From Tubiluchus corallicola (taxonomy: Eukaryota; Priapulida; Priapulimorpha; Priapulimorphida; Tubiluchidae): a stretch of DNA of 64,000 nt. A program made the position numbers and the translations under genes. The number at the start of each line of letters is the position of its first letter. Position 1 is the stretch's first letter. The notes under the pieces are model-generated. The model saw only the letters and a program-made list of their open reading frames with translations. It did no database searches and was not told where the DNA came from. The stretch spans positions 30,001 through 94,000 of the forward strand of contig JAQGDQ010000676.1 of NCBI GenBank assembly GCA_030141605.1. Reading direction: 5' to 3'. This document shows, piece by piece, positions 3,359 through 58,645 of this stretch.

Positions 3359-3513
3359 GGTGTCCCCTGACTGTTTCTACACAAACTTTATCAATGCCAG
3401 CATTCGTATGAATAACACCAGTTTTGCAGAAGATGAAGGCACGTACATGTGCAAGTATTTCAGACAACCAAACATTGAACAGGAATCCCAGAATGCAAAC
3501 ATGACTGTCATAG
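3359..3513 (+). CDS. Internal exon of an Ig V-set cell-surface protein
   Basis: A 155-nt exon bounded by TTGTACAG| and CATAG|GTATGTC. The frame enters on the third base of a codon and leaves after the first. It encodes the second half of an Ig V-like domain: the E-strand region SIRMNNTSF, the F-strand motif DEGTYMCKY with its cysteine, and a G-strand end NANMTVI. This pattern is typical of nectin/CD200-like surface proteins (family knowledge). The partner cysteine, other Ig domains, signal peptide and membrane segment are not in reach, so this is a partial gene. Oddity: the last 15 exon bases plus the donor form the first unit of a 37-bp tandem array. A degenerate gene fragment is possible, since no neighbouring exon was found. 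Confidence 0.7.
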
Positions 3514-3834
3514 GTATGTCATTAAACATATGCAAACATGACTGTCATAGGTATGTCATTAAACATATGCAAACCTAACTGTCATAGGTATGTCATTAAA
3601 CATATGCAAACCTAACTGTCATAGGTATGTCATTAAACATATGCAAAACCTAACTGTCATAGGTATGTCATTAAACATATGCAAACCTAACTGTCATAGG
3701 TATGTCATTAAACATATGCAAACCTAACTGTCATAGGTATGTCATTAAACATATGCAAACATGACTGTCATAGGTATGTCATTAAACATATGCAAACATG
3801 ACTGTCATAGGTATGTCATTAAACATATGCAAAC
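3499..3834 (+). repeat. 37-bp array anchored on the Ig-exon splice donor
   Basis: About nine head-to-tail 37-bp units (one of 38). Each contains the 3' end of the Ig exon, AACATGACTGTCATAG, followed by the donor GTATGTCA and about 14 intron bases. Unit 1 spans the real exon/intron border at 3513/3514. Donors recur near 3551, 3588, 3625 and onward. Later units vary at CATGACTG versus CCTAACTG. Confidence 0.9.
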
Positions 3835-4082
3835 TCGATAAGATATGGTATGATAAGAGTGCTCTTTCATACTTGTTCTAGAGAGAGACTTAAAAGTTCA
3901 TACTGCAGGTTGTTTTCTTGAAATGTACTTCACTTTTAAGACGTCCAGCAATAATTCAGAGCCGGAAGAGTAGGATTCGTAAAAATTGAATCTGACGACT
4001 TAGACGACAATGATGAAGTGATGGTTCAACAACACAGTCGACAAATATAATCGTTTAGTTTTGAACCGTTACAAAATGAAAG

Positions 4083-5045
4083 TGAAAAACATCATTTCCT
4101 ACGGTTTCACTGGTAGCTCAGCACCTTGTAATGCAAATAGATTAAAAGATAATACCTGTTTTTCTAATGTAAGGATAATACAGATAGATTAAAAGATAAT
4201 CCATTTTTTCTAATATAAGGATAATGCAGATAGATTAAAAGATAATCCATTTTTTCCGTTAAGTGCTGAATTTCAGTAATATACAGTGATTGAACAGTAT
4301 AAAAAAAGTAATATTACCAAAATTAAATGAAACTGACTCTGAATGCATGGTAATTATAAAAAAGCAACTTTAAAGTAAGAAAGAATCGAATATATTGATG
4401 AAATGATACAAATTGGAATTTTTTGACATGATATTCTTTTTCTTCATTGTAAATAAATTGCTTGATGAAATGATATGACTGTTCGTAAAATGTTATTGTG
4501 CAGAAATGTATATTGGAGTTTTTTGACTTGATATTCTTTTTCTCCATTGTAAATAAATTGCTTGATGAAATGATATGACTGTTCGTAAAATGTTATTGTG
4601 CAGAAATGTATATTGGAGTTTTTTGACTTGATATTCTTTTTCAATATGTTTGCTTAACCCTTGTAGGGTCACGATTCCCCGCCCCCCACACCATAATTGC
4701 TTATTGCTTGGATATTTTTCGTTGTGTATTGTAAATAAACAATTTTTGTATTTAAACAAATCAGATATTTTTATTCTGCTTGTATACTCCCATAAATGAT
4801 GTTTAAACTAAATGTATAATTGAAGGAAAAACGATGTATTAACGAGAACACACAACATTTTAACAACACATTTAATAACACACCACAAGCAGTTGCTGGG
4901 TCAGCTTTTCAACAACATTTTAACAACGCATTTAATAACACACCACAAGCAGTTACTGGGTCAGCTTTTCATAAGATCCATATTAAAAAACGAGCGATTA
5001 TTACACGTTTACGGCTAAAACATTTGATAATAAAAAAGTAAACAA
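4083..5045. repeat. Duplicated non-coding block, copy 1
   Basis: Matches 7225-8800 in the same orientation, starting at CATTTCCTACGGTTTCACTG. It contains about 2.5 units of a ~100-bp tandem repeat (4385-4650), then a segment with two 'CACACCACAAGCAGTT' sub-repeats. Small Lys/Tyr/Phe-rich ORFs on the minus strand come from the repeats. Not coding. Confidence 0.8.
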
Positions 5046-5836
5046 TGACAATGTATTGTATGTTGTGAAAATGGGTGGAGGTGGTACGTTTTGTTTGCTG
5101 TTTTCACGCTTGCTTTCTCGTCTGTTTAATTCTTTGCTTACTGACTTTTTGCTGTTTCGAAGTTTAATCCAGGTTGTGGCGTTGGCCAGTGCTGCTCGGT
5201 CACCTGTACCTGCTGCGCTTCCCATCCAGTTTGTGGCATTGGGCAGTGTTGATTAATCACCAAAACCAAAAGCTTTACATTCCCGCCACAGATGCCGCCT
5301 CGTGCACGAATTTGTAAGTAAGATTAACAAAAAAAGGCTAAGTCTGGTACACAATCCTTCTATGCTTTTATACTTTATCAAAACACTAAATATTCGATTG
5401 TGAAAGAATGTTTGTTAACTAAAGCCAGGTTTGTGGCATTTCAAACAGGTTTGGTTTCAATCTTTCTCTGACAGTAAATTAAACCAGTTTTAAATATCCA
5501 ATTGTGAGTGAGTGTGAACATAGTACCCTCGACCTGAGACCCTCAACTAGCAACAATGCGCGTTTATTCAAGTAGTGTTTTGATCTTCAATGTTGTTCTT
5601 TTGTCTTTTGCAGTATAACCTCTTCCACCGTACGAACAACTACCAGTAGTCCTACCGCAGCCGGCCGCCATTGTTGTCGTACATTTACAAATATAATTAA
5701 TTACATATTTACAATACATACATACATGAATATAATAACAATACAATACAATACAATATAATATAATACAGAAATGACATTTATTAACTTTAATAATTAT
5801 ACTTGAAAGTGCCAAACAATTATTTGTATGTAATTA
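5046..5836. other. Non-coding between duplicated blocks
   Basis: AT-rich with CAATA-type simple sequence near 5740. No gene or transposon end is supported. Confidence 0.4.
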
Positions 5837-7200
5837 ATCCTCCATCATAAACGTTGAAATTTCATTTAATTCAGTCAAGATACAAAAAGAGAAATCTCTT
5901 GCTTTTATTGTATTTCAAATATCCACGGCCGGAGATACTTTAGAAATTTGATCTTCAGTTAGTTTGCGTTCCTCTTTAAATATGTCTAATGGTTACGTTA
6001 ATTACGTTGTGCACTTAATATTTAATTGTAATTTCTTCATTTGGTTGCATTAGGCAGATGGACACAAAGCATTAATATCATCATAGAGCTAATAGAGCAA
6101 GTCCCTCTATATAAGCCTATAGTGCTAAATTATAGTCAATATTATGGTGCACCTAAATTGAATTTATATTGTGCTTCATAAGGTGATTATTGTGCTTTAG
6201 TGCATAGTGCTACTTGTAATAACTATGCTATTCATGTAAATGGTAATATGTAAGTAAACATTTATGATAGTTAACTAACACGATAGATTTGTGAAATTTG
6301 TAATGTGTGAATCATCTCAAGTTATAAATGAATAGAAAAATGTTACTTGAATGAAATAATGATGTATTTTATTATGGCCACATTTTAATCAAATCTTGTC
6401 TGCTTCTTGTTGTTGGTTTGTGCTCCTTTGAAATAGGAAGTACGAATGACTAAATGAAAATGATTAAATGGTCAAAGTAGTGAGACACAAACAATTAAAA
6501 AAATACATATCGAGGTTTACTTTAAAAATGGATAATCGCATAACCCTATGCTAACGACAATCATAAAAAGATTTCTGAGAGTTTCAGTCCTGTTAACCAG
6601 GTTAACCTACCATAGGTCTCTCCCCTGAGTTTTATTAACGTAAAAATCACATACTATAAAACAAATTTTCGATAAAAGTTAAGTAATAACTCACGTTTAC
6701 TAATAGCACAAGTTTGATAATACTGGACGCCCTTGGCTTTGAGTTATTAAAAAAAAGGCTTTATTCATATCTGTGACCTTGACCTTATATGTGGTTCAGT
6801 TAAAAGACGCCAACAAGGATCACTAGGTCCGAATGTGCTAAGGATTCCCTAACAGCATGCCAAATTTCGTGACTCAGATGAAACCATTACTGACTTCATT
6901 AAGGAAAAACTATTTTGATACATAAACTTTACTTAGTTGAAAACTTAAAGTTGATACTGATACAGTGGCGGCTCATGGTAGCGTAAAACAGCAGCACCCC
7001 CTATTTTCATTCAATATTATCTATAATATTCAATACAATAAGTCTTTTCTTCAGTTCTTCATTTATACTTGTGCAGAATCAAAGCACGCGAGGGTAGTAC
7101 TGTTTGCTTCACAGACTAGGGCAGTGCGCTCCAGCAACATGGTGTTTGGCTGCTGTGCACATGTCTGAGCCCAGGTAGAGAAAGTACTGTCGCTCACACA
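5837..7200. repeat. 1.35-kb duplicated segment, copy 1
   Basis: Nearly identical to 9935-11315 in the same orientation, with a third truncated copy at about 9285-9530. The right part begins with CAGTGGCGGCTCATGG at 6965 and is also related to 21640-22560. That suggests a mobile repeat ended by 'CAGTGGCGGCTC'. No conserved ORF. Confidence 0.85.
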
Positions 7201-7224
7201 GTTTGTTATCAGTCGTCACGTGAT

Positions 7225-8810
7225 AAAAAACATTATTTCCTACGGTTTCACTGGTAGCTCAGCACCTTGTAATGCAAATAGATTAAAGGATAATACTTGT
7301 TTTTCTAATGTAAGGATAATGCAGATAGATTAAAAGATAATCCATTTTTTCTAATATAAGGATAATGCAGATAGATTAAAAGATAATCCATTTTTTCTAA
7401 TATAAAGATCTTTTCGGAATACGGTGTACACTAAATCCGTTAAGTGCTGAATTTCAGTAATATACAGTGATTGAACAGTATAAAAAAAGTAATATTACCA
7501 AAATTAAATGAAACTGACTCTGAATGCATGGTAATTATAAAAAAGCAACTTTAAAGTAAGAAAGAATCGAATATATTGATGAAATGATACAAATTGGAAT
7601 TTTTTGACATGATATTCTTTTTCTTCATTGTAAATAAATTGCTTGATGAAATGATATGACTGTTCGTAAAATGTTATTGTGCAGAAATGTATATTGGAGT
7701 TTTTTGACTTGATATTCTTTTTCTCCAATGTAAATAAATTGCTTGATGAAATGATATGACTGTTCGTAAAATGTTATTGTGCAGAAATGTATATTGGAGT
7801 TTTTTGACTTGATATTCTTTTTCTCCATTGTAAATAAATTGCTTGATGAAATGATATGACTGTTCGTAAAATGTTATTGTGCAGAAATGTATATTGGAGT
7901 TTTTGACTTGATATTCTTTTTCTCCATTGTAAATAAATTGCTTGATGAAATGATATGACTGTTCGTAAAATGTTATTGTGCAGAAATGTATATTGGAGTT
8001 TTTTGACATGATATTCTTTTTCTTCATTGTAAATAAATTGCTTGATGAAATGATATGACTGTTCGTAAAATGTTATTGTGCAGAAATGTATATTGGAGTT
8101 TTTTGAATTGATATTCTTTTTCTCCATTGTAAATAAATTGCTTGATAAAATGATCACGTGACTGTTCTGAAGTAAAACGGAAAGTTGAAATCGGGCATTA
8201 CTCATATTGTTGATTGAATTTTTCCGTATCTATGCAGTAGAAAGCGCAAGTTAACGCTTACACTTCATATTTTTTGATTAAGCTGAAGCTTTTTTCATAT
8301 TCATTATGTATAAATTTGAGTGGTTTCTTGTAATTTGTGTAATATCTTTTTCATTTTTGTTATATACAGTCCATAAATTCTTTGTGCTGTAAATATCCTT
8401 TATTGTGTAAATATGCATTGGTATATCTGCCTACATAATTATTATTACTGTTAACATTCATATTTTATTTTCGATATTCTTCGAGTAGTAATTTTGAGTA
8501 GTAGCTTTCAATATTTTTTCAAATGCCAAATGTATTGTAAATAAACAATTTTTGTATTTAAACAAATCAGATATTTTTCTTCTGCTTGTATACTCCCATA
8601 AATGGTGTTTAAACTAAATGTATAATTACAGGACAAACGTCCTACTAACGAGAACACAACATTTTAACAACGCATTTAATAACACACCACAAGCAGTTAC
8701 TGGGTCAGCTTTTCATAAGATCCCTATTAAAAACGGGCGATTATTACACGTTTACGGCTGAAACATTTGAAGACCTAAGAGCGATAATAAAAAAGTAAAC
8801 GATGAAAGTG
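7225..8810. repeat. Duplicated non-coding block, copy 2, with ~100-bp array
   Basis: Second copy of 4083-5045. Here the internal ~100-bp unit (TAAATAAATTGCTTGATGAA core) is expanded to about six copies (7575-8160). The array-length difference shows local expansion after the duplication. Confidence 0.85.
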
Positions 8811-9930: not shown

Positions 9931-9934
9931 AAGA

Positions 9935-13640: not shown

Positions 13641-13641
13641 A

Positions 13642-24101: not shown

Positions 24102-25479
24102 CAGTGGCGTAGCTAATGGGGGAGGAAGGGGAGCAACCGTCCCCCAGCACGTTTTTTCAAAATTTGCACCTTTCAACAATTTTTTAGTTCATTAATTGAG
24201 TTGCTGAGTAATCTTTAGAGGGTTGAAACAGATAAAGTCCTTCCTTCGTTCTACAATGGAGGAGGATAGATTGTCTGAGTTTAGCTTTGCTCTCCATTGA
24301 AAGAGAGTTGACTACTGAGGTGGATTATCATAAAGAGGATAGATTGTCTGGGTTAGCTTTGCTGTCCATTGAAAGAGAGGTGGTTACTGAGGTGGATTGT
24401 AATAAAGAGGATAGATTGTCTGGGTTAGCTTTGCTGTCCATTGAAAGAGAGTTGGCAACTGAGATGGATTATAATAAAGAGGATAGATTGTCTGGGTTAG
24501 CTTTGCTCTTTATTGAAAGAGAGTTGGTTAATGAGCTGGATTATAATAAAGAGGTTAGATTGTCTGGGTTTAGCTTTGATCTCCATTGAAAGAGAGTTGG
24601 CTACTGAGGTGGATTATCATAAAGAGGTTAGATTGTCTGGGTTAGCTTTGCTCTTTATTGAAAGAGAGTTGGCTACTGAGATGGATTATAATAAAGAGGA
24701 TAGATTGTCTGGGTTAGCTTTGCTCTCCATTGAAAGAGAGTTGGCTAGTGAGGTGGATTATCATAAAGAGGATAGATTGTCTGGGTTAGCTTTGATCTCC
24801 ATTGAAAGAGAGTTGGCTACTGAGGTGGATTATAATAAAGAGGATAGATCGTCTGGGTTAGCTTTGATCTCCATTGAAAGAGAGTTGCTTACTGAGGGGG
24901 ATTATAATAAAGAGGATAGATTGTCTGGGTTAGCTTTGCTCTCCATTGAAAGAGAGTTGGCTACTGAGGTGGATTATAATAAAGAGGATAGATTGTCTGG
25001 GTTAGCTTTGATCTCCATTGAAAGAGAGTTGGCTACGGAGGTGGATTATAATAAAGAGGATAGATTGTCTGGGTTAGCTTTGCTGTCCATTGAAAGAGAG
25101 TTGACTACCGAGGTGGATTATAATAAAGTTATGAATTACTTTACTAGAATGAAGCCTAGATGAAAGAGACTGTTGTAGTTCCGTCATGATACATTTTCAC
25201 AATGGTTCATTTTGTTTTCACTTTACGTTTAAAATTAGAATAATTAAATAACACATCATGTTTTCATTGTTTTGAGATTCACGAGCCTACTGTAAACTTT
25301 TAATTGCATTTTGATTTTAAATACAAAATAACAATTATGCACTTCCTTTAAAATTGTATCTTCCTGCTGTTTTGATTTTAAACAGAAAATTAGAATGTAT
25401 GACCAATGCGTTAAAAATTGTTTGACACCTTTTTTATGTGCCCTACTCCCCCTAACTTTAGAACCTAGCTACGCCCCTG
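24102..25479 (+). mobile_element. hAT element with repeated transposase tail
   Basis: Ends CAGTGGCGTAGCTA and TAGCTACGCCCCTG, flanked by TCACTAGT (24094-24101) and TCACTAGC (25480-25487). The ends and 8-bp duplication mark a hAT transposon. About two thirds of the 1378 bp is a 72-bp array that encodes reiterated copies of the transposase C-terminus. The catalytic part is missing, so it is non-autonomous. Confidence 0.9.
24256..25163 (+). pseudogene. hAT transposase C-terminal (dimerisation) fragment, 12 tandem 24-residue repeats
   Basis: About twelve 72-bp units encode EDRLSGLALLSIERELATEV plus DYNK. The sequence ends VDYNKVMNYFTRMKPR and a stop. This matches the last ~35 residues of hAT transposases, where a DRLxGLALLxI...E helix and a basic tail close the dimerisation domain (family knowledge). 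Because the unit is 24 codons, the frame survives duplication. A 1-bp insertion near 24570, and one in unit 1 (GAGTTTAGC), shift the frame so that two overlapping ORFs (24287-24589 and 24513-25163) result. Units vary at a few residues (LSIE/ISIE/FIER; DYHK/DYNK). No catalytic DDE residues or zinc finger remain. It is an amplified relic rather than a working gene. Confidence 0.75.
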
Positions 25480-26159: not shown

Positions 26160-26757
26160 TGTGAAAAAGGCTTTTGTCAATATATGTGGCAACATAAACC
26201 AAACTGCTTTAGTGGCACAAACACTTTATTATTGACTCTCTTTCCTGTATACTACGCTGTGACTACTAGATTAAAACTGTAAAAGCTCAAATCAGTTGAA
26301 ACTGGTTAACCTTGGGTAATGCATATCAGAAACCAGTCAGGTGAGAAAATGATTCACTGTAGTCTAACTTGCTGTAAAGTTGTAATGTTACTAAAGTTTA
26401 TAAAGTTCATAAACAAACTCGTGAATCAGTTCACGACACAACAAGAAGAAGAACAACTCAAGTAAAGGTGAGAAAATGATTCACTGTAGTCTACCTTCCT
26501 GTAAAGTTGTAATGTTGCTAAAGTTTATAAAGTTCATAAACAAACTCATGAATCAGTTCACGACAGGGTAAAGATACAGAAAAGTACCGGTCTAGATACA
26601 CCCTCGGTCTGACTCAACATCGGCTATAAGGGACATCGGATATAAAGGACAATTTTTTCTGGTCCGGAGGTGTCCCTTATATCCGAGGTTGACTGTAGGC
26701 AGCCCATTATGCGCTAATTAAGTAGTTAACAAAAGCCAGAGAAGTAATAAATAAACA
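26160..26757 (-). repeat. LTR of the BEL/Pao element (3' in element sense), with internal duplication
   Basis: Direct match to 30951-31421. On the plus strand it starts TGTGAAAAAGGCTTTTGTCA. It is longer than its partner because a ~127-bp segment (GTGAGAAAATGATTCACTGT...) is tandemly repeated. The outer limit is uncertain because homology runs a little past 26731. Confidence 0.8.
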
Positions 26758-26761
26758 GATC

Positions 26762-27060
26762 GCAGAACTATTGCACGTCCTTGTGGAATCCAGAATCCAT
26801 CTTTTCTCAACTGAGCAAGCAAATGTTTTGGTCCTGCATGGCCAAGTCGTTCATGTGCATCTAGAATCACCAAACGAGTAAACTTGGATTCCTTAGGCAA
26901 CAAAATGGGATGGATTGTTCCATATGGTAAATTGGCATTCTGAATTCTGCCGAGGCTTCGGATTATTCCATCTTTATCTAAAAAGAGATCCAACTGTTTG
27001 GTTCGATAATGTTTCACATTTTTATTACTACCAGTCAAGGCTTTCAGTTCTTCTCCATAA
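26762..27060 (-). pseudogene. BEL/Pao integrase N-terminal zinc-binding fragment
   Basis: Encodes RSLGRIQNANLPYGTIHPIL and then HERLGHAGPKHLLAQLRKDGFW, the His-His part of the HHCC integrase domain. After WIPQGRAIV the family sequence stops and meets the LTR block at about 26760, so the core domain is deleted. The upstream join to RNase H is out of frame by one base near 27055. Confidence 0.8.
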
Positions 27061-28270
27061 AAAGCTTTTGTACTGCTTTAGTCCATATGAACGAAGCTTC
27101 TTGCAGATTTTCAGCCTTTATCTGGCCAGAGATACTTTTGCCTCGTATACGGTTCAAAAACATGTGAACTCGGCATGTCACACGAAGTAATTTCTGTAAA
27201 GATGAGAAGCGGCTGATATCCATTTCAAAGGGCATGACAGATGGAGTTTCTTCCAATTTGGGAATTTTCTCCTTGCCAGCATAGTTTCTTGACAAAAGTG
27301 CAACAGCTTCTTCTTCTTCTTGAAGACTTGGTGTACACGGCAGATCAACAGGCCATTCTTCATGATCTTTAGTGAGAAACTTTGGCCCTCCCCACCAAAC
27401 AGAGTTGCTGATCAATTGTGATACGGTACAACCTTTCGTTGCTAAATCAGCCGGGTTTTCATTTGTAGGAATGTAGCGAAAAATGAGAGCAGTGTTCGAT
27501 TTAATCTCTTTAATGCGATTCTCCACAACTAAACTTTTTAGACAAGTACTACGCAGCCACCATAGAAATATTTGTGAATCTGACCACATGTATTCTTGTT
27601 GGATTTCAAATCCAAGATGCTTCTTGACAAACGAAAGCAAACGTACACCAATCCAAACACCCATTAGTTCCAGCCTTGGCAATGTTGTGATCTTCTTTGG
27701 AGCTACTCTGGCTTTTGCCATGATAAAGTTTGCAGAACGGACGTCATCTTGGTGCTTTACTAGGTACACCACTGCAGCAAAGGCTTTAAGGGAAGCATCA
27801 GCAAAACAATGTAAATCATAAGTACATTCCTCATTGTTGAAGCCGATGTAGCGTTTAAGTGTTATGTCTGATACTGTTTTTAATTCGCATGTAATTTTAT
27901 TCCAATCCCTTTTGTAGTTTTCTGGAAGTTCCTGATCCCAGTCAAATTGTTCCTTCCACAACTGCTGAGTTAAGAATTTTGCAGGCATTGCAACAGGCAG
28001 AACCATTCCAATTGGATCAAAAACCCGTGCAAATGCTTGAGTGATGATTCTTTTAGTTGGAGTAGATTCAAAGTCACATTTTGGATGGATTATGTCCTCT
28101 TTAATGTTCCATCCAAGCCCAAGTTGCTTGACCTGATTAGAATTTACTCTGTCATGCTCTGGAATAGATTCCATAAACTCACTGCAGTTTGATGTGTATT
28201 CTCGAAGGTTAATTGACATTTGGGAAAATATTTCTTTACTCTCTTTATAGAGCAAGGCAGATTTGAACAT
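27044..28270 (-). pseudogene. BEL/Pao pol fragment: RT connection and RNase H
   Basis: A 408-codon open stretch. Residues ~1-160 match the region after the RT palm in Pao elements (KQLGLGWN, ARVFDPIGMVLPV, LWKEQFDWDQELP). The rest is RNase H-like: CFADASLKAFAAVVYLV, LPRLELMG, WSDSQIFLWWL, and the HPADL-type motif NENPADLATKG. The preceding RT palm with its YxDD box is absent: protease-like sequence runs almost straight into FKSALLYKESKEIF. The element cannot be autonomous. Confidence 0.85.
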
Positions 28271-28500
28271 TTTCTACCAACTGAATCAAGAAATACCCTT
28301 ACAGGAACTGACTGACCAGTTTCTTGATTAAAAAGCCATGTACTAGCTGTCTGGAAAAACACTGATGGTGTCACTGACATCAATGTGGCTGCTTCACTCA
28401 CACAGTTACTAATTGAAGAAGAAGCTTGTACCCAAGGTAAACCTGGAGTAAATGAAGCTTGAGACTGCGTCTCCACTGATGGCGTCACTGACATCAATGT
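28144..28500 (-). pseudogene. BEL/Pao protease remnant with ~114-bp duplication
   Basis: Encodes 'GQSVPVRVFLDSVGRKC', where the aspartic protease D-S/T-G triad should be but reads DSVG. A segment encoding FTPGLPWVQASSSISNCVS is tandemly duplicated (spacing ~114 bp), creating a stop at the copy junction near 28508. Confidence 0.65.
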
Positions 28501-28506
28501 GGCTGC

Positions 28507-28900
28507 TTAACTCACACAGTTACTAATTGAAGAAGAAGCTTGTACCCAAGGTAAACCTGGTGTAAATGAAGCTTGAGGTGTCCCAATTGATGGTGAAGAA
28601 CTCTGAGATGAGGCTTGAGAAATAGGCACTTCCTTTCCAAATGCTCGGAAACACATCGCTGAATTATGATTATCAGCTTGACAATGAAAGCATGGTTTAG
28701 AATGTGAATGTGACGATGTAGTGCTATGCACTTTTAAACAAACATTGCACAAGCCCAATTGTGTGGCTCTATTTTCTCGTGAAGGAATATCTGGAAACTT
28801 CTGACATCTATCTGCCCAATGAGACTGTCCACAGAATATGCACTTACTTCGCTGCTGCTTCTTAGTTTTCTTACCATTACCATGGGCATTGGAATCAGCT
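28507..28900 (-). pseudogene. BEL/Pao gag zinc-knuckle region
   Basis: Encodes cysteine/histidine knuckles: CIFCGQSHWADRC, then CNVCLKVHSTTSSH and CFHCQADNHNSAMC. This is the usual segment between the DUF1759-like gag and the protease in BEL/Pao elements. It is cut from the upstream gag by the 97-bp array. Confidence 0.8.
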
Positions 28901-29657
28901 AGTAAAGCATGGGCTGCAGACTGGATACCAGGCTTTGAGACTGTTGGTTTTTTTTCTGTTTTGCTCAGTCCTTGACCACCGGGCATTGGAATCAGCTAGT
29001 AAAGCATGGGCTGCAGACTGGATACCAGACTTTGAGACTGTTGGTCTTTGCTCTGTTTTGCTCAGTCCTTGACCACCGGGCATTGGAATCAGCTAGTAAA
29101 GCATGGGCTGCAGACTGGATACCAGACTTTGAGACTGTTGGTTTTTGTTCTGTTTTGCTCAGTCCTTGACCACCGGGCATTGGAATCAGCTAGTAAAGCA
29201 TGGGCTGCAGACTGGATACCAGACTTTGAGACTGTTGGTCTTTGCTCTGTTTTGCTCAGTCCTTGACCACCGGGCATTGGAATCAGCTAGTAAAGCATGG
29301 GCTGCAGACTGGATACCAGACTTTGAGACTGTTGGTTTTTGTTCTGTTTTGCTCAGTCCTTGACCACCGGGCATTGGAATCAGCTAGTAAAGCATGGGCT
29401 GCAGACTGGATACCAGACTTTGAGACTGTTGGTTTTTGTTCCGTTTTGCTCAGTCCTTGACCACCGGGCATTGGAATCAGCTAGTAAAGCATGGGCTGCA
29501 GACTGGATACCAGACTTTGAGACTGTTGGTTTTTGCTGTGTTTTGCTCAGTCCTTGACCACCGGGCATTGGAATCAGCTAGTAAAGCATGGGCTGCAGAC
29601 TGGATACCAGACTTTGAGACTGTTGGTCTTTGCTCTGTTTTGCTCAGTCCTTGACCA
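28882..29657 (-). repeat. 97-bp tandem array inside gag, 8 copies
   Basis: Eight nearly identical 97-bp units at 28882, 28982, 29079, 29176 and so on, each starting GCATTGGAATCAGCTAG (plus strand). The unit codes the gag linker GGQGLSKTEQRPTVSK, then SGIQSAAHALLADSNA. As 97 is not a multiple of three, each unit shifts frame and brings a stop (CSPCFTS*). Confidence 0.95.
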
Positions 29658-30670
29658 CCTAAGGTTCGAGCATCGATTTCAGTCTTAATCATCTGCTTTA
29701 AGGAATCCAGTGTCCATTCTCTGCATTCATTTCGCCGAGCTAAATCTGTTCGCACGCATGGAGGAAGTTTTGAATACAGCAGTGCTGGAAACATTGTCTG
29801 TACACTAATATCACCCAGTGATTGTAAAGCACGAAAATGCACCATACAAGCATCATGGACTTCCTGTAGTCCTATTATTGTGTCAGGAGCTTCCTTCATT
29901 TGGAACAATTTGAGAAAATGCTCTTGACGGACTAACTCTGGTTTATCATAGCGTTCGGTTAACAGCTCTACCATATGTCTGTAGCCTTCTGCCGTGGGTT
30001 GAAGCCCTTCAACTGTTGTCTTTGCCCTTCCTTCTAGAAAACTTAGCAAATAATTTGCTTTATCTATTAGTGAAAGATCATCTCTCTCATGCACAGCAGA
30101 TTTGAAGGCACCCCAGAAAAAGTTCCATCGCATGGGGTCCCCTTTAAATTTCTCAATGTGCAGTTGAGGAAGTTTCGCTTTGCACCGTCGTCTCACAAAT
30201 GTAGTTGCTGAATTAACAGTGACATGGTCATCGTCATTGCTGTCATCATCATCAGTAGCTGACGTATTTAACGCTTGACGTGAACCATATGCCTGAGACA
30301 CAGGTGGCTGAACTACTGTTGGTTTTGTTTCTCTTTCTAGCTCCAACTTCTCTTGAATCAGCATACGAGATGCATCGACTTGCTCAACAAAAGTTTGGAG
30401 TTGATCCAGTAAAGGAAAACTTTCCACTCGCAGAGCCTCCTTCTCTATCTCATCATCCATTGTCTCTATTAATTCATCATAATGTTTTGTTAGTTCAGCG
30501 AAGTACCTTTTCATGGATGTTTGTGCTCCTTCTACAGCTGCTCTATGCTGAACAAAGGTTTCCTCTGTTGCCAAAAAAGGATTATTGTCACCAAGAACTT
30601 GCTGTGCACGCTTAGTCAGTTGCTCAACTACTGAAATTAGCCTTTTCTTCTTCTGCGCTCTGGTATCAAC
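29640..30670 (-). pseudogene. BEL/Pao gag, DUF1759-like domain
   Basis: An open frame of over 320 codons, read from an upstream stop near 30675. It shows an N-terminal coiled-coil-like part (ELTKHYDELIETMDDEIEKE), an acidic Asp-rich linker, and the DUF1759 signature LPQLHIEKFKGDPMRWNFFW, then FLEGRAKTTVEGL and ERYDKPELVRQEHF. No ATG opens it near the LTR; the natural start may be upstream and broken. It runs into the 97-bp array and terminates there. Confidence 0.85.
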
Positions 30671-30950
30671 TGGAATTTTGCCTTACACTGCAAATAGAAC
30701 CTTTACAAAACAGCATACAAGGGTAAAGCCCTCCCCCGCACAAGGTAAAGGTAAAGGCAACAATGTAATACTGTGTTTAAGTAAAAATGTCAAAATGCTA
30801 TAGCAGGCAAACAGGTAGATACCACATAGAAGAGGGTAAAAAGAAAAAGAATTTACTGTGAATCACAAAATCAGCATAATGAAAATCATTTTACTCACAG
30901 TCCTTCTAAATGTTACAGCATACCCAAGTAGTAGTGGGCACTGGCACCAA

Positions 30951-46867: not shown

Positions 46868-48237
46868 CTGAAACAGAGAAACAAAATGGCTGACAAGTAG
46901 CTAGTGCTGCATCCAATATACAAGTAAAATAAATATGTATAACAAGTTGAAAAACTGATGTTTTCAATAGAACGAAAGCAAATACAAACAAAAATATTGC
47001 TTTATTTCAATATAAAACTAGTACACCAATTACAAACGATATCAAACAAATTTAATAATAAATACAACTATGTAATACAAATTATATATATATATTAATT
47101 CTTTATTTGTCATTAAAATGGTTCACTCATTATAATAAAATTGAGTAAGCCTCAGCCTAATGTTAAAATAACAACACTGTTCAAGACAAATGCGTCCAGT
47201 GCATATTAAAAAAAACTAAAGTGCAAAACTAAGGCCTAATTATATATAACAAATGAACATATTTACAAGCACCATATTAAAATATTTTTACAAAACAATA
47301 TTACAAAAGTACATTAAATTTTACATGACATATTTTACACTATTTATACATTTGACATTACAAAACTAACATAACACGTATTACATTACATAATTTTTTT
47401 TAAATGTTACATTTTTAATCGTTTTGTGGAGTCAGGGGCGGGGGTAGATGAAAGTTGAGTCTGTGTAATTAGTATCAGATGCACAATGTGGAAGTTGAAA
47501 CCTGTTATGTAGATATTCTTTTAATTTCTTTTTAAAGTGGTGGAGAGATTCAAAGATAAATTCGAATGATAAAACATACTTTTTGATACAAAATTAATAC
47601 AGATAATTAATAGCATCACAAACTAAAGGAAATTAGAACCTATGCTTGCATGCTTGCATGCTTGCATGATTGCATGCTTGCATGATTGCATGATTGCATG
47701 CTTGCATGATTGCATGACCATCCATTGTACACGTATTTACATAACTTTTTTAAGACAATTAAAACACGCTGTGATTACAATTTTTAAAGCCAAAAAGCCT
47801 TATCAGAGTTGTGTGCACGCACAGTTGTTGTAGGACAATGGTTAGGTGTACCACAGCGGCACGTTTCAACTACAACCATCATGTGATATGTTACTAAAGC
47901 AAAGCTGTCTACTGCATCTGTTCAGTAACTATCACATGATATGTTACTGAAGCAAAGCTATCTGCTGCATCAGTTCAGTTGTTTTACGTGCACTTTACTT
48001 ATGCATTAGTCTGCAAGTGATTTACTAGCAGGATCTTACCTTGGGAACAAGTAAAAATGAACTAGGTAAGGTTCCAGCTAGATGTTAAAACTGTTACTAT
48101 TTCAACAACATGAGCTGCGAGGCGTTGTCAAGTGTACACAACTGCGTTGTCTGGTACACTTAACCTTTGATCTTCTCACGATCATCATCAATCGTTGGAA
48201 CTGTGAAAAGGCTCATCATGATGGCATTAATACGCAC
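46868..48237. other. Annexin intron 7
   Basis: AT-rich. Includes a GCATGCTT/GCATGATT octamer repeat at 47640-47720 and a duplicated ~60-bp stretch (TATCACATGATATGTTACTGAAGCAAAGC-like) at 47880-47975. No exon. Confidence 0.5.
47640..47720. repeat. 8-bp GCATG(C/A)TT repeat
   Basis: About ten octamers GCATGCTT/GCATGATT in register. Confidence 0.9.
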
Positions 48238-48413
48238 CTCAATAGCATGTTTCAGACCTACGCCGAAGTGCCGGAGATATTCCGCCCTTATTTGCAACAT
48301 GTCTTTTTCACATCGAGTGATGACAAGACGAATCAAGCCGGTTGTAGCGTGTCCTTTTACCATCTCGTTAAATCTTCTGGCAAAGTAATAGTCTTTGTCT
48401 TTTAACATCGTAA
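48238..48413 (-). CDS. Annexin exon 7 (repeat 4)
   Basis: Between TTTTTGCAG| and ATTGAG|GTGCGT. Encodes TMLKDKDYYFARRFNEMVKG, HATTGLIRLVITRCEKDMLQ and IRAEYLRHFGVGLKHAIE. It matches the repeat 4 pattern YFAxxLxxAMKGxGTDxxxL-IRxxxxRxExDLxxIxxxY, except that the calcium loop GAGTDD is replaced by GHATTG. Confidence 0.93.
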
Positions 48414-48992: not shown

Positions 48993-50042
48993 GTTGGATC
49001 TCAGTAAGTATTCGGGAATAATTGAATAGAGTTTCCTGTTGTTTACTGTTTACAGTAACTGGACAGAAGAAAATTATTTAATTACTCTTGAATTTATATT
49101 TATATGGTATTTTCATCATACTTTTTTGAATTTTGCATAGTGCTGCCACCTTCAGGTGTTTTTGTAAAAATTGTTTAATCTTTCTCTTTGCTGTTTAAAT
49201 TTTCACTAACGTTTACAGTCTTTAGGAATGCATAATCTCTAAACCTGTTTATGACATCTCACTGATTTCACCTGCAATTTTGGTCACTTGGTCACTTTTC
49301 AAACCAAAAGTTTGGTAGCAGGAGAGTAGTTTAATGAATGGCGATCGTTTCGGTTGTTGAAGCCATTATCAAACTATAAATCAAGTCAAAAGAAGAATAA
49401 ATAATACATTAATGACACAAAGGCACAAAATGAAACTACAAAACAACAGAATAGAATTTAACTGATCAAAATAAACGAGGTTGAAATGGAAGAAATCGTA
49501 GAGAAATGAACAAAATTATATGCTAGGTAAATTTTTCTCTCAATTTCTTCCGTTTCAACCTCGTTTATTTTGATCAGTTAAATTCTATTCTGTTATTTTG
49601 TAGTTTCATTTTGTGCCTTTGTGTCATTAATGTATTATTTATTCTTCTTTTGACTTGATTTATAGTTTGATAATGGCTTCAACAACCGAAACGATCGCCA
49701 TTCATTAAACTACTCTCCTGCTACCAAACTTTTGGTTTGAAAAGTGACCAAGTGACCAAAATTGCAGGTGAAATCAGTGAGATGTCATAAACAGGTTTAG
49801 AGATTATGCATTCCTAAAGACCGTAAACGTTAGTGAAAATTTAAACAGCAAAGAGAAAGATTAAACAATTTTTACAAAAACACCTGAAGGTGGCAGCACT
49901 ATGCAAAATTCAAAAAAGTATGATGAAAATACCATATAAATTTAAATTCAAGAGTAATTAAATAATTTTCTTCTGTCCAGTTACTGTAAACAGTAAACAA
50001 TAGGAAACTCCGTTGATTTATTTCTGAATACTCAGATCCAAC
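48993..50042. repeat. 1.05-kb palindrome in annexin intron 6
   Basis: Two ~505-bp arms, nearly identical in inverted orientation, around a spacer of about 20-45 bp at 49497-49541. Outermost ~50 bp of both arms are pieces of the ~115-bp exon-derived unit (GTTGGATCT...GAATAGAGTTTCCT), in opposite orientations. Arms contain a Penelope-like TTGATAATGGCTTCAACAAC / CGAAACG motif. Confidence 0.9.
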
Positions 50043-52402
50043 TGTGCTAGCCGGTAGTCGTAATCATCAGCGGTTTCTCTTTTGACCACGTCTTCAATTA
50101 GCTCATTTGTAAGAGAAACTCTATTGATTTATTACGGAATACTTACCAAGATCCAACTGTGCTAGCCGGTAGTCGTAATCGTTAGCCGTTTCTCTTTTGA
50201 CCACGTCTTCAATTAGCTCGTTTGTAAGAGAAACTCTATTGAATTATTTCTGAATACTTACCAAGATCCAACTGTGCTAGCCGGTAGTCGTAATCGTTAG
50301 CCGTTTCTCTTTTGACCACGTCTTCAATTAGCTCATTTGTAAGAGAAACTCTATTGAATTATTTCTGAATACTTACCGAGATCTAACAGCGCTAGCCGGT
50401 AGTCATAATCATCAGCCGTTTCTCATTTGACCATGACTTCAATTAGCTCGTTTGTAAGAGAAACTCTACTGATTTATTTCTGAATACTCAGATCCAACAG
50501 CACTAGCCGGTGGTCATATTCATCAGCCGTTTCTCTTTTGACCACGTCGTCAATTAGCTCGTTTGTAAGAGAAACTCTATTGATTTATTACGGAATACTT
50601 ACCAAGATCCAACAGCGCTAGCCGGTAGTCGTAATCGTTAGCCGTTTCTCTTTTGACCACGTCGTCAATTAGCTCGTTTGTAAGAGAAACTCTATTGATT
50701 TATTACGGAATACTTACCAAGATCCAACAGCGCTCGCCGATAGTCATAATCGTTAGCCGTTTCTCTTTTGACCACGTCGTCAATTAGCTCGTTTGTAAGA
50801 GAAACTCTATTGATTTATTACGGAATACTTACCAAGATCCAACAGCGCTAGCCAGTAGTCGTAATCGTTAGCCGTTTCTCTTTTGACCACGTCGTCAATT
50901 AGCTCGTTTGTAAGAGAAACTCTATTGATTTATTACGGAATACTTACCAAGATCCAACTGTGCTAGCCGGTAGTCATATTCATCAGCCGTTTCTCTTTTG
51001 ACCACGTCTTCAATTAGCTCGTTTGTAAGAGAAACTCTATTGAATTATTTCTGAATACTTACCAAGATCCAACTGTGCTAGCCGGTAGTCGTAATCGTTA
51101 GCCGTTTCTCTTTTGACCACGTCTTCAATTAGCTCGTTTGTAAGAGAAACTCTATTGAATTATTTCTGAATACTTACCGAGATCTAACAGCGCTAGCCGG
51201 TAGTCATAATCATCAGCCGTTTCTCATTTGACCATGACTTCAATTAGCTCATTTGTAAGAGAAACTCTATTGATTTATTTCTGAATACTCAGATCCAACA
51301 GCGCTAGCCGGTAGTCATATTCATCAGCCGTTTCTCTTTTGACCACGTCGTCAATTAGCTCATTTGTAAGAGAAACTCTATTGATTTATTTCTGAATACT
51401 TACCAAGATCCAACAGCGCTAGCCGGTAGTCGTAATCGTTAGCCGTTTCTCTTTTGACCACGTCGTCAGTTAGCTCGTTTGTAAGAGAAACTCTATTGAT
51501 TTATTACGGAATACTTACCAAGATCCAACAGCGCTCGCTGGTAGTCATAATCGTTAGCCGTTTCTCTTTTGACCACGTCTTCAATTAGCTCGTTTGTAAG
51601 AGAAACTCTATTGAATTATTTCTGAATACTTACCAAGATCTAACAGCGCTAGCCGGTAGTCATATTCATCAGCCGTTTCTCTTTTGACCACGTCTTCAAT
51701 TAGCTCGTTTGTAAGAGAAACTCTATTGAATTATTTCTGAATACTTACCAAGATCCAACTGTGCTAGCCGGTAGTCGTAATCGTTAGCCGTTTCTCTTTT
51801 GACCACGTCTTCAATTAGCTCGTTTGTAAGAGAAACTCTATTGAATTATTACGGAATACTTACCAAGATCCAACAGCGCTCGCTGATAGTCGTAATCGTT
51901 AGCCGTTTCTCTTTTGACCACGTCTTCAATTAGCTCGTTTGTAAGAGAAACTCTATTGAATTATTACGGAATACTTACCAAGATCCAACAGCGCTCGCTG
52001 ATAGTCATAATCGTTAGCCGTTTCTCTTTTGACCACGTCTTCAATTAGCTCGTTTGTAAGAGAAACTCTATTGAATTATTACGGAATACTTACCAAGATC
52101 CAACAGCGCTAGCTGATAGTCATAATCGTTAGCCGTTTCTCTTTTGACTACGACTTCAATTAGCTCGTTTGTAAGAGAAACTCTATTGATTTATTACGGA
52201 ATACTCAGATCCAACAGCGCTAGCCGGTGGTCATATTCATCAGCCGTTTCTCTTTTGACCACGTCTTCAATTAGCTCGTTTGTAAGAGAAACTCTATTGA
52301 TTTATTTCTGAATACTTACCGAGATCCAACAGCGCTCGCTGATAGTCATAATCGTTAGCCGTTTCTCTTTTGACCACGTCTTCAATTAGCTCGTTTGTAA
52401 GA
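50043..52402 (-). repeat. ~115-bp array built on annexin exon 6 and its splice donor
   Basis: About 20 units plus the true exon end. Each unit repeats the last ~83 nt of exon 6 (from TTACAAACGAGCTAATTGAA to GATCTTG), the donor GTAAGTATTC, and ~30 intron bases. Some units lose the donor (CTTACC changed to CTCAG on the plus strand, for example near 50490, 51290, 52205). Codon variation gives NDYDYQRAL, NDYDYRLAL, DEYDYRLAL and RLAQ versions. At least two units have an in-frame stop (TCAAATGA). Confidence 0.95.
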
Positions 52403-52554
52403 AACTCGTATTCCACGATAACATTGTGCATGTGTGCAAAAGTGCGGACGGCAAAGAGCTTGTCGAACGCCCCCGCCACACCCTCCTCCTGCAACTTTCT
52501 AGCATCCTCTTGTTCTGTTTTGATGTTCATCTTTATAGATGGGTCTCTCTTAGC
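52320..52554 (-). CDS. Annexin exon 6 (linker and repeat 3)
   Basis: 235 nt between ACACTTTTCAG| and GATCTCG|GTAAGT. Encodes AKRDPSIKMNIKTEQEDARK, LQEEGVAGAFDKLFAVRTFA, HMHNVIVEYEFLTNELIEDV and VKRETANDYDYQRALLDL. This is repeat 3 with the E-D-A-x-x-L start; the GxxGTDE loop is replaced by GVAGAFD. The 3' 83 nt are the parent of the ~115-bp array. Confidence 0.93.
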
Positions 52555-53141
52555 CTGAAAAGTGTTTTAAGTAAAAGAGGATCCCAAACCCCAAATCTTA
52601 CCCCACTTTGAAGTATGGTAAAAAGTACTTGTGAAAGTCATTTTTGAAGTTGTTGTTCAGTCACTTTGTTATGATTGAGTTTAGACACACAGATAAGTAT
52701 GAATAGGAACCAAAATTTTCGAATCGGGCCCACCGGGAGGAACGGGGGGTGAAAAACCTCCAAAAATGGCCCTTTTTCGGCCGTTTTTTGCAAAGTTACA
52801 CGGCTGAGATGTAGAGAACGGGAACGGGCCGAGGGGGGTACTGGGTATGGATAGATAGCCCGCTCAGCGGTGGGTGTAGTAGTCTATAATAAATATAACA
52901 GAAGTGTTTATTGAACTACAGAAAACATGAGTAGCAAAACTGCTGCACTGAACATTTAGCAAAAACTAGAAAGCAAAAACAGTCAGTAAAACCTGTTTCA
53001 CAGCCAGTATACAGGTATTGAATTTGACCTATGCAGAGTTGCACAGGCTTCACAACAACCATTAATTTAACATAGGGAGAGATTGGTTCGACGGCCGTTT
53101 TAAAATTACAATAACCTGTTGTAACTAGTACCTGTACTTAC
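52555..53141. other. Annexin intron 5
   Basis: Contains a locally GC-rich, G-rich stretch (52725-52870). No exon or mobile element recognised. Confidence 0.5.
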
Positions 53142-53215
53142 TGTAATCAATGTGATAAGTAATTTTTGCAAACCCTTCGATGTATCACCCTTGATAGCAT
53201 CTATTAGCGTTTCAC
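53142..53215 (-). CDS. Annexin exon 5
   Basis: 74 nt between TTTTCTTTTAG| and GATTACA|GTAAGT. Completes a Gly codon and encodes ETLIDAIKGDTSKGLQKLLI followed by TLIT, the end of repeat 2 with the GDTS calcium cap. Confidence 0.92.
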
Positions 53216-54180: not shown

Positions 54181-54490
54181 GGAGCACATTTTTGCATGAA
54201 TCAAAAAAGGAAATGTTATTGTTGTGGTAGCTATCAGGTTAGCACTGGCTTTTCAGAACCATCTTAGATCCATCTCTATCGCCATCTAGCGGCCACAGTA
54301 GCTCATTTCTCTCTCACAAACTAACCTTTAAATTCACAACTTTAGGCAAACCTCGTCAGATGATTACAAATGATCACATATTTATTTTGGTACCCGAGAC
54401 TCTTTGGAACACCACAGAGCTGAAAATGGGTTATTCGGTAATGGGTCCATGTCACACTCCACTTAGTGACCCTTTCCAACTCTGACTTAC

Positions 54491-54593
54491 CATATTTGTT
54501 ATGCTTCGGGTATTCTTTCACCATAGCTTGCCGTTCTTCAAAAGATCTTGTGCACAGGATTTCAATCAACGTTGCCTCGTCTGTCCCTGCACC
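54491..54593 (-). CDS. Annexin exon 4 (start of repeat 2)
   Basis: Between TTTTTTTACAG| and AAATATG|GTAAGTC. Encodes GAGTDEATLIEILCTRSFEE, RQAMVKEYPKHNKY and one base of Gly. Canonical annexin: GxGTDE loop, LIEILCTRS and the Y..Y/F-G end. Confidence 0.95.
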
Positions 54594-54689
54594 CTGTAAA
54601 AAAACAGAAAAGAGATTCTAAGATATCTGTGTCAGTTCGTTAAATTTCGTTACCAAACTGTTTAAATTTTCGTGCATATCCAAAAGTTG

Positions 54690-57490
54690 ACGCAGAATAA
54701 AGTACGCAAAGTTGACATACTACAAGTCTACAAGCATGCAAAGTTAACCTACTACAAGCATGCAAACTTAACGTACTACAAGCACGCAAAGTTAACGTAC
54801 TACAGGCAAGCAAAGTTAACCTACTACAAGCATGCAAAGTTAACGTACTACAATCATGCGAAGTTAACGTACTACAAGCATGCAAAGTTAACGTACTACA
54901 AGCATGCAAAGTTAACGTACTACAAGAACGCAAAGTTAACCTACTACAAGCATGCAAAGTTAACGTACTACAAGCATACAAAGTTAACGTACTGCAAGCA
55001 CGCAAAGTTAACCTACTACAAGCATGCAAAGTTAACCTACTATAAGCATGCAAAGTTAACGTACTACAAGCATGCAAAGTTAACGTACTGCAAGCACGCA
55101 AAGTTAACCTACTACAAGCATGCAAAGTTAACGTACTACAAGCACACAAAGTTAACGTACTACAAGCATGCAAAGTTAACGTACTATACGCATGCAAAGT
55201 TAACGTACTACAAGCATGCAAAATTAACGTACCACAAAAGCATGCAAAGTTAAGTACTACAAGCATGCAAAGATAACGTACTACAAGCATGCAAAGTTAA
55301 CGTACTACAAACATGCAAAGTTAACGTATTACAAACATGCAAAGATAACGTACTACAAGCATGCAAAGTTAACGTACTACAAACATGCAAAGTTAACGTA
55401 CTACAAGCATGCAAAGTCAATGTACAACAAGCATGGAAAGTTAACATACTACAAGCATGCAAACTTAACGTACTACAAGCATGCAAAGTTAACGTACTGC
55501 AAGCACGCAAAGTTAACCTACTACAAGCATGCAAAGTTAACGTACTAGAAGCACACAAAGTTAACGTACTACAAGCATGCAAAGTTAACGTACTATACGC
55601 ATGCAAAGTTAACGTACTACAAGCATGCAAAATTAACGTACCACAAAAGCATGCAAAGTTAAGTACTACAAGTATGCAAAGTTAACGTACGACAAATATG
55701 CAAAGTTAACGTACTACAAATATGCAAAGTTAACGTACTACAAACATGCAAAGATAACGTACTACAAGCATGCCAGGTTAACGTACTACAAACATGCAAA
55801 GTCAATGTACAACAAGCATGGAAAGTTAACATACTACAAGCATGCAAAGTTAACGTACTACAAGCATGGAAAGTTAACATACTACAAGCATGCAAAGTTA
55901 ACGTACTACAAGCAGGCAAAGATAACGTACTACAAGCATGCAAAGTTAACGTACTACAAACATGCAAAGTTAACGTACTACAAGCATGCAAAGTTAACGT
56001 ACTACAAGCACACAAAGTTAACGTACTACAAGCATGCAAAGTTAACGTACTACAAGCAGGCAAAGATAACGTACTAGAAGCATGCAAAGTTAACGTACTA
56101 CAAGCAGGCAAAGATAACGTACTACAAGCATGCAAAGTTAACGTACTACAAACATGCAAAGTTAACGTACAACAAGCATGCAAAGTTAACGTACTACAAG
56201 CACGCAAAGTTAACGTACTACAAGCATGCAAAGTTAACGTACTACAAGCAGGCAAAGATAACGTACAACAAGCATGCAAAGTTAACGTACTACAAACATG
56301 CAAAGTTAACGTACAACAAGCATGCAAATTTAACGTACTACAAGCACGCAAAGTTAACGTACTACAAACATGCAAAGTTAACGTACTACAAGCAGGCAAA
56401 GATAACGTACTACAAGCATGCAAAGTTAACGTACTACAAGCATGCAAAGTTAACGTACTACAAGCATGCAAAGTTAACGTACTACAAGCATGCAAAGTTA
56501 ACGTACTACAAGCATGCAAAGTTAACGTACTACAAGCATGCAAAGTTAACGTACTACAAGCAGGCAAAGATAACGTACTACAAGCATGCAAAGTTAACAT
56601 ACTACAAACATGCAAAGTTAACGTACTACAAGCATGCAAAGTTAACGTACTACAAGCAGGCAAAGATAACGTACTACAAGCATGCAAAGTTAACGCACTA
56701 CAAGCATGCAAAGTTAACGTACTGCAAGCATGCAAAGTTAACGTACAACAAGCATGCAAAATTAACGTACAACAAGCATGCAAAGTTAACGTACAACAAG
56801 CATGCAAAGTTAACGCACTACAAACATGCAAAGATAACGCACTACAAGCATGCAAAGTTAACGTACTGCAAGCATGCAAAGTTAACGTACAACAAGCATG
56901 CAAAGTTAACGTACAACAAGCATGCAAAGTTAACGTACAACAAGCATGCAAAGTTAACGTACTACAAGCATGCAAAGTTAACGTACTACAAGCATGCAAA
57001 GTTAACGTACTACAAGCACGCAAAGTTGACGTACTACAAGCTCGCAAAGTTGACATACTACAAACATGCAAAGTTAACGTACTACAAGCACGCAAAGTTG
57101 ACATACTACAAACATGCAAAGTTAACGTACTACAAGCATGCAAAGTTAACCTACTACAAGCATGCAAAGTTAACGTACTACAAGCACGCAAAGTTGACAT
57201 ACTACAAGCATGCAAAGTTAACGTACTACAAGCATGCAAAGTTAACGTACTACAAGCACGCAAAGTTAACGTACTACAAGCATGCAAAGTTAACGTACTA
57301 CAAGCATGCAAAGTTAACGTACTACAAGCACGCAAAGTTGACGTACTACAAGCACGCAAAATTGACATACTACAAACATGCAAAGTTAACGTACTACAAG
57401 CACGCAAAGTTGACGTACTACAAGCACGCAAAGTTGACATACTACAAACATGCAAAGTTAACGTACTACAAACATGCAAAGTTAACGTAC
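54690..57490 (-). repeat. 24-bp array starting at the exon 3 splice donor, ~115 copies
   Basis: Minus-strand unit GTACGTTAACTTTGCATGCT + TGTA. The first unit starts exactly at intron base +1 of exon 3 (after AATGGCA). The array fills almost all of intron 3. The unit is built of palindromes GTAC, GTTAAC and GCATGC and has no stop in several frames of both strands, so long ORFs (up to 617 codons of STLTLHAC) appear but are not genes. In the exon 3 frame the donor reads GTA CGT TAA, a stop. Confidence 0.95.
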
Positions 57491-57616
57491 TGCCATTGCA
57501 TTGAATAGACATTCTATATCGTATTGTCGTGGAGGTTTCATCAAACCATCAATGACGATATTCATGTGTAATTCGCCCATGTCTAGAAATGCTGTACTTA
57601 ACCAAAATGCGAGGTC
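57491..57616 (-). CDS. Annexin exon 3
   Basis: 126 nt, phase 0 at both ends, between CTTCATTTCAG| and GGCA|GTACGT. Encodes DLAFWLSTAFLDMGELHMNI, VIDGLMKPPRQYDIECLFNA and MA. The 'LMxPPxxYDxxCLxxAM' block is the classic annexin repeat 1-to-2 junction. The expected K before GAGTDE is A. Confidence 0.94.
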
Positions 57617-57774
57617 CTGAAATGAAGGGAAAAAAGCTTTTCTTTTCATTTATAAACTGGGTATAATTGACAGACTAATTGAACTTGTTGGCGAGGCTGC
57701 AATGTACTGAGCATTTACATCGGAAAAGATATTATGCAGGCTGACATGACAGCTGATATATATATACCAGTCTG

Positions 57775-57890
57775 CATAATACCAGAATATATACACACAC
57801 ATGTATGTGTATACGTGTGTGTGTGCGTGCGCATGCGTGCGTGTATGTGTGTGTGTGTATGTGCGTGCGTGCGTGTGTGAGTAGGTGTGT
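57775..57890. repeat. (GT)n/(GC GT)n microsatellite
   Basis: Alternating purine-pyrimidine tract GTGTGTGCGTGCGCATGCGT and following. In annexin intron 2. Confidence 0.9.
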
Positions 57891-57949
57891 ATTTCATGTC
57901 AGCCTGCATACTAATTTGCATATATTGTAGATGGCACTAAAGGTGCTGT

Positions 57950-58550
57950 TGCACCAGTACAGTGAAAATGGTGGCGACACCTACATATAAAACGAGCTGT
58001 TGCAGTGGTAGGGTGGCGACACCTACAAGCAAAAAGGGGTGCTTTTGCACTGTTGCAGTGACATTGCAGCGACGCCTGCAAGCAAAAAGGGGTGCTATTG
58101 CACTGTTGCAGCGAATACAATGGTGACTCCTAGAAGCAAAATGAGGTACTATTGCACTGTTGCAGCAAATACAGTGGTGACACCTACAAGCAAAACGAGG
58201 TGCTATTTCACTATTGCAGCTGGTATGGCAGCGACATCAACAAGTAAAATGAGCTGTTACTACACTATTGCAGCAAGTGTGATGAAGACACCTACAAGTG
58301 AAATAAGGTGCTATTACACTACTGCAGCAAATACGGTGGTGCCACCTACAAGTAAAATGAGGTGCTATTATGCCATTGCAGCAAATACGGTGGCAATACC
58401 TACAAGTGAAAGAGGCGCTATTACACTGTTACCACGAATATGGTGGCGACACCTACAAGTAAAATGAGATGCAGCGTACATGGTGGCAACACCTCCAAGA
58501 AAAATGAGGTGCTATTTCACTGTTGCAGCGAGTATGGTGGCGACACCTAC
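57950..58550 (-). repeat. ~52-bp array beginning at the exon 2 splice donor
   Basis: About 12 units. The minus-strand unit opens with the donor itself, GTAGGTGTCGCCACCATACT, then CGCTGCAACAGTG and TAGCACCTCATTTT. It starts at intron base +1 of exon 2. Divergence increases away from the exon. Confidence 0.92.
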
Positions 58551-58645
58551 CTCTTTGTACCTCTTGCTAAAGGCTTCGTTGATTAGCAGCCGTTGTTCGT
58601 TTGTTCTGTTTGTGAGCACGTTAATAACTGCGTCTTCATCGGTAC
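58551..58645 (-). CDS. Annexin exon 2 (repeat 1)
   Basis: 95 nt between TTTTTCTAG| and AAAGAG|GTAGGTG. Completes Gly and encodes TDEDAVINVLTNRTNEQRLL, INEAFSKRYKE, an excellent match to annexin repeat 1 (GTDEDAIIxVLTxRTNxQR). The exon is enclosed on both sides by the same tandem repeat. Confidence 0.95.

Follow-up and report, generated by a model that had tools for sequence, protein, structure and literature searches.

Why should exons of unrelated genes run, with no gap, into tandem arrays that carry those exons' own 5' splice sites? The question is raised by a 64,000-bp window (G000:C2181:30001-94000, the whole stretch of DNA analysed here) from an assembly of 343.5 Mb (2344 contigs; G+C 36%), whose genes were read as animal. 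The original prediction had placed such arrays at four exons of this window: an immunoglobulin (Ig) V-set exon and exons 6, 3 and 2 of an annexin gene. Arrays were located with Tandem Repeats Finder (TRF), a score of at least 80 being the cut-off for counts, and all four lay where predicted, with units of 37, 115, 24 and 54 bp, respectively, the last replacing an earlier estimate of ~52 bp. The reading favoured here, at a probability of about 0.72, is that they are minisatellites of the type described in amphioxus as "mirages", which would be born near-neutrally across donors and do no harm as long as splicing takes the first donor.

Exon ends and donors inside tandem units

The Ig V-set exon (3359..3513, plus strand; donor ATAG|GTATGT) matched PF07686 with an E of 0.0008 and 20 bits (curated cut-off 26), and a DNA search detected three related exons. 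Its array (3493..3834, plus strand; 9.2 copies with 98% matches by TRF) contains nine donors, each 37-bp unit comprising the last 21 nt of the exon and the donor GTATGT, with an intron part of 16 nt in all. The donor hexamer was invariant in 7 of the 7 copies kept, and an 8-bp direct repeat (ATGCAAAC) was present at both ends of the array. Exon and array together matched the window and one paralog (L111, 91% identity), while L112 (77%) and L113 (76%) matched the exon alone. Donors numbered one in L112, one in L113, three in L111 and nine in the window, and this 1, 1, 3, 9 series indicates stepwise growth of the array. As L111 and the window have the same distal flank and different copy numbers, growth took place between fixed borders.

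In the annexin gene, which lies on the minus strand, the exon borders agreed with Pfam and solved annexins, with the phase and with the exon-2 donors of paralogs. Exon 6 (52320..52556; donor CTCG|GTAAGT) is continued by a 115-bp array (50004..52402) of 21 copies including the exon's own end. The unit corresponds to the last 83 nt of the exon, the donor and ~30 nt of intron. A GT donor was found in 17 of the 21 copies, a donor deletion was shared by 4 of them, and the border word GAGTTTC forms a 7-bp direct repeat at both ends of the array. Exon 3 (57491..57618; donor GCA|GTACGT) is followed by a 24-bp array of 115 copies (54728..57491) that occupies ~95% of the intron. Its unit starts at base -1, the sole exon base in common with exon 3, and the donor hexamer GTA[C/T/G]GT was retained in 106 of the 114 copies kept. 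The array at exon 2 (58551..58645; donor GAG|GTAGGT) begins at donor +1 and extends over 58012..58550, TRF having delimited 58012-58472 and the genome search having extended it to 58550. Thus, the Ig and exon-6 units carry an exon tail (21 and 83 nt) as well as the donor, whereas those of exons 2 and 3 begin at the border. De novo exon-signal scoring at the array edges of the window, which was excluded from counts, recovered the Ig exon and exon 6 and gave low values for exons 2 and 3.

The 54-bp unit of exon 2 also occurs upstream of that exon, in 11.4 copies (58750..59363, minus strand), and as a single inverted copy detected by the genome search (59395..59463, plus strand). In the upstream array, the donor hexamer was invariant in the 10 copies kept although no exon end precedes it, as were the first eight bases of the unit (GTAGGTGT).

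As predicted, the remaining annexin exons lacked arrays. The donors of coding exon 1 (60383..60482, from the ATG; donor 60382), exon 4 (54490) and exon 5 (53141) lay inside no TRF-listed array of the window, and TRF gave none at the end of exon 7 (48220..48413, approximate ends). The arrays of this gene touched two donors by TRF coordinates, and three when the genome-search extension at exon 2 was included; under uniform placement, two donors were touched in 6 of 20000 trials and three in none.

The start of the exon-2 array was further compared with six annexin paralogs, none of which was arrayed at +1 of the exon-2 donor (by eye). At intron positions +7..+28, four of the six showed 15, 13, 12 and 10 identities out of 22, against null counts of 0, 1, 1 and 7 among 543 GTR sites, and the other two showed no agreement (2/22 and 4/22). 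The start of the exon-2 intron is single-copy in these four paralogs, and so the start of the unit is older than the array. The first ~28 nt of this intron (within 58490-58550) look alike in L075, L076, L079 and L080 despite exon tails that appear quite diverged. Such likeness beyond the expectation for intron DNA might reflect a conserved element or a read-through peptide. In the L076 intron, a TTTGACCTT-type word recurs loosely, as judged by eye, ~170 bp past the donor.

Upstream of the Ig exon, tandem copies of a C1q-domain exon had been missed by the original prediction. The exon matched positions 1-37 of PF00386 (E 0.00018; 22.1 bits, under the curated 23.7). A first cluster (8..618, plus strand) is built of 185-bp and 125-bp units, with exon ends at 153, 338, 463 and 566, and a second (2247..2680, plus strand) of the 125-bp unit, with exon ends at 2403, 2528 and 2653. 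Each end is followed by GTATGT, giving seven such donors across both clusters. The 185-bp unit represents the whole exon with its acceptor, and the 125-bp unit the exon tail, the donor and ~20 nt. At least 13 matches to this exon were found off the window's contig, every one of them single. Contig C1436 carries relatives of both the C1q and the Ig exon, which may thus belong to a C1q-Ig gene family.

Donor arrays elsewhere in the genome

Other genes were inspected for the pattern as well. The donor side was inspected for 30 of 140 kinase-domain matches, picked among intron-split matches before their flanks were seen, and 2 of the 30 donor flanks lay within new arrays of exon tail plus donor. 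These two further genes, with the C1q exons of the window, bear out the recurrence. On C1769, the 71-bp unit includes 10 nt of exon followed by GTACGT; on C662, the 25-bp unit includes 9 nt of exon, after which the first copy has GTACGC and the following one GTACGT. The acceptor of one of these two exons had a weak repeat with a 15-bp unit (2.4 copies, score 48), and that of the other had none. At two other kinase loci (L103 and L091), arrays of score at least 80 begin no less than ~100 bp downstream of the donor. Among myosin genes, where 63 of 93 exon matches were used and the ends of matches mark exon ends only approximately, 0 of 63 had an array of score at least 80 at either end. The nearest such array began ~115 bp past a donor, and short or weak repeats scoring 40-57, not counted as arrays, lay no more than 32 bp from the match end on the donor side in two cases and on the acceptor side in three.

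The units tested by DNA search of the 343.5 Mb were exon 6 with its tail, the 54-bp unit, the C1769 unit and the Ig unit; the search passes over very common words, so that uniqueness refers to the matches found. Exon 6 with its tail, the 54-bp unit and the C1769 unit had one locus each. As the units tested are confined to their own locus or, for the Ig unit, a close paralog, they do not behave as a mobile element, and the prediction that the arrays do not form one satellite family was upheld for these four. A dispersed element was ruled out for the 54-bp, C1769 and Ig units by their single-locus or close-paralog matches. Dispersed near-identical copies of the introner type were likewise not found for any of the four units. 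Nor was a new intron inside a former exon found for the exon-2 and Ig donors, both of which are present in array-free paralogs.

Repeats of period at least 10 and score at least 80 covered 14455 of the 64000 bp of the window, versus 4169 of 213071 bp at the other loci analysed. Donors were compared with other positions through the recurrence, within 300 bp and with at most 3 mismatches, of an 18-mer spanning the boundary. Of 93 donors found, 4 scored below 2, and 88 were kept under slightly narrower limits; the 61 acceptors came from myosin only. Recurrence was observed at 2/88 donors (95% interval 0.3-8%), 0/61 acceptors and 7/236 control positions of the same introns, the latter not being mutually independent. 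By this measure, donors did not exceed other intron positions, and did not differ from acceptors (P = 0.51). As an array that meets an exon must arise across the donor, the sum of unit lengths per base offers a fairer expectation, which is applied below.

Probable birth of the arrays and expected consequences for splicing

According to the mirage-type reading, a local tandem duplication, aided by a direct repeat of 7-8 bp where borders are readable, would by chance cover the end of an exon together with its donor, and the array would enlarge via slippage or unequal exchange. Extra copies would land in the intron, behind an unharmed first exon end and donor, so that such an event should be near-neutral provided that splicing takes the first donor. 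The fit of the arrays to exons would then result from geometry and survival, because any donor-spanning duplication must appear to start at the exon. Microhomology had been proposed in the original prediction in an AG|GT-like form. The repeats of 7 and 8 bp at two arrays agree with microhomology as such, but these words lie within exon and intron and are not AG|GT.

Read-through beyond the first donor meets stop codons after 62, 23, 7 and 36 nt at the Ig exon and annexin exons 6, 3 and 2, respectively, and protein is thus expected only from splicing at the first donor, later donors giving early stops. In the 24-bp array, variation was 0.048 at +1..+6 versus 0.055 overall, and in the exon-6 array 0.050 at the donor bases versus 0.062 overall, 56 of the 115 six-base windows varying as little. 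Donor bases that are hardly better kept in the large arrays, together with the donor deletions in 4 of the 21 exon-6 copies, are what would be expected of bystanders. Repeated donors might instead be useful, as decoys that cut output by unproductive splicing or, at exon 6, as alternative exons. In favour of such a role are the hexamers kept in 106/114 copies of the 24-bp array, in 7/7 Ig copies and in the 10 upstream 54-bp copies (both small sets), the GT of 17/21 exon-6 copies, the early stops behind inner donors, and the greater variability of codon position 3 in the exon-6 copies (11/27 versus 11/55; P = 0.064). A useful role is nevertheless highly improbable, as the two large arrays keep their donor bases hardly better than the rest of the unit, the upstream 54-bp array adjoins no exon end, and the gaps between exon-6 copies, at ~28 nt, are very short for an animal intron. 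The alternative-exon version was rejected, the codon-position signal being too weak.

Inserted elements, either introner-like transposons or a donor-carrying mobile satellite, could account for the 54-bp unit flanking exon 2 on either side, with one copy inverted. However, the tested units occur at one locus or a close paralog, their lengths and sequences differ, and the start of the 54-bp unit is a plain intron start in four annexin paralogs, which leaves this explanation with hardly any probability.

Another possibility, considered unlikely, is a process of this lineage with a preference for 5' splice sites as the places where DNA is duplicated, linked for example to transcription or to an AGTAC-like motif. 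Several observations fit it and weigh against chance birth of mirage-type arrays. Under the birth-rate null, 0.21 donor-spanning arrays were expected among the 88 donors and 2 were seen (P = 0.019), and 0.25 were expected among the 8 donors of the window, which was chosen for its pattern, and 4 were seen. The donor GTACGT was found at 3 of 6 arrayed donors versus 2 of 87 others (P = 0.0015), or at 2 of 6 (P = 0.020) when C662 is counted by its first donor, GTACGC, both comparisons being post hoc. The mirage-type reading is further burdened by the arrays of exons 2 and 3, which start at most one base from the border, a position poorly explained by chance; our guess is that exon-side similarity has aged. 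Also against that reading, at the border repeats of the Ig and exon-6 arrays a partial last copy is indistinguishable from original microhomology, and in shuffled local alignments of the exon-2 intron start the L076 score was reached in 16 of 2000 cases, the other five paralogs not being significant. GTAC-type donors as a whole gave 3/6 arrayed versus 5/87 others (P = 0.008), again post hoc, and the absence of recurrence at the 61 acceptors also suits a preference for donors.

Conversely, a preference for donors is opposed by the similar recurrence at donors (2/88) and intron controls (7/236), by the lack of difference from acceptors, by the 0/63 myosin exon matches and by the post hoc nature of the motif test. 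Moreover, amphioxus boundaries are affected at both 5' and 3' according to the accessible text of PMC3087553. The sense GC skew of six arrays ranged from -0.11 to +0.21, and skew of both signs lends no support to R-loops; the R-loop-linked repair originally put forward was accordingly disfavoured. Of the donor-targeted process in the prediction, a modest birth-rate excess persists, while donors stand out neither from control positions nor from acceptors. An excess of arrays at donors is thus possible, though unproven. It is likewise unlikely that tandem duplication favours active 5' splice sites, GTAC donors perhaps most of all, with ~1 intron in 40 beginning with a donor array and the spliceosome errorlessly taking the first of up to ~100 near-identical donors.

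Amphioxus mirages, related systems and neighbouring features

The original prediction knew of no named system of this kind, but the amphioxus mirages provide one. In the accessible parts of PMC3087553 and PMC3902484, which also lead to a related amphioxus source (Canestro 2002, Nucleic Acids Research), mirages affect both 5' and 3' boundaries, vary in copy number and leave splicing apparently normal, as suggested by Adh3 data and globin reverse transcription PCR (PMC3087553). Judged from DNA, the new case matches them in the structural features examined. The unit spans the exon-intron boundary (with an exon tail at the Ig exon, exon 6, C1769 and C662, and from the border at exons 2 and 3), units are gene-specific and of very unequal length, locus copies differ in repeat number (three donors in L111 versus nine in the window, these being paralogs and not alleles), and splice signals are retained in many, not all, repeats. 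On the other hand, the 115-copy array exceeds the counts given in the accessible parts of both papers, and among the units seen here an acceptor is contained in the C1q whole-exon unit only, whereas amphioxus mirages are described there at 5' and 3' boundaries alike. The host did not group with vertebrates in a myosin tree, and it is known here from DNA. In that tree (44 rows, with no named cephalochordate), the host and two other sequences formed a clade with a long stem that fell outside the vertebrates, the deep branches being weak. A literature search, with most subscription journals outside its coverage, returned mirages described for amphioxus only. The phenomenon may therefore extend to another animal lineage, which would be a second one if the host is not a cephalochordate. 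The present data add a first rough rate of donor arrays and the stepwise Ig series, and donor-array loci are a natural setting for testing how one donor is chosen by the splicing machinery among many equal ones.

Intron gain through tandem duplications that contain AG|GT (Rogers 1989, Zhuo 2007, Gao & Lynch 2009, as cited in the accessible text of PMC3087553) likewise duplicates exon and splice-site sequence. Unlike in that process, an existing intron is lengthened here. The potato RNA-dependent RNA polymerase (RdRp) gene is said to be a case of such intron gain. Ordinary intronic minisatellites, or variable number tandem repeats, show tandem growth, similar copies and locus-specific units. 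The arrays described here share all three properties, but take in a working donor, and several of them coding sequence as well. One study reportedly dealt with tandem repeats altering the structure of human genes, and another with intronic minisatellites of C. elegans.

Among the myosin loci, genes with one very long motor exon were found on C1359, C917, C380 and C1844; C1359 carries three of them, and the two on C917 point in opposite directions. Elsewhere in the window, a 72-bp array of 12 copies (24262-25128) overlaps a stop-free frame of 220 codons (24501-25163), and a 97-bp array (28884-29659) lies among long open reading frames of the minus strand (26718-30682), which we take to resemble a BEL/Pao-type retroelement.

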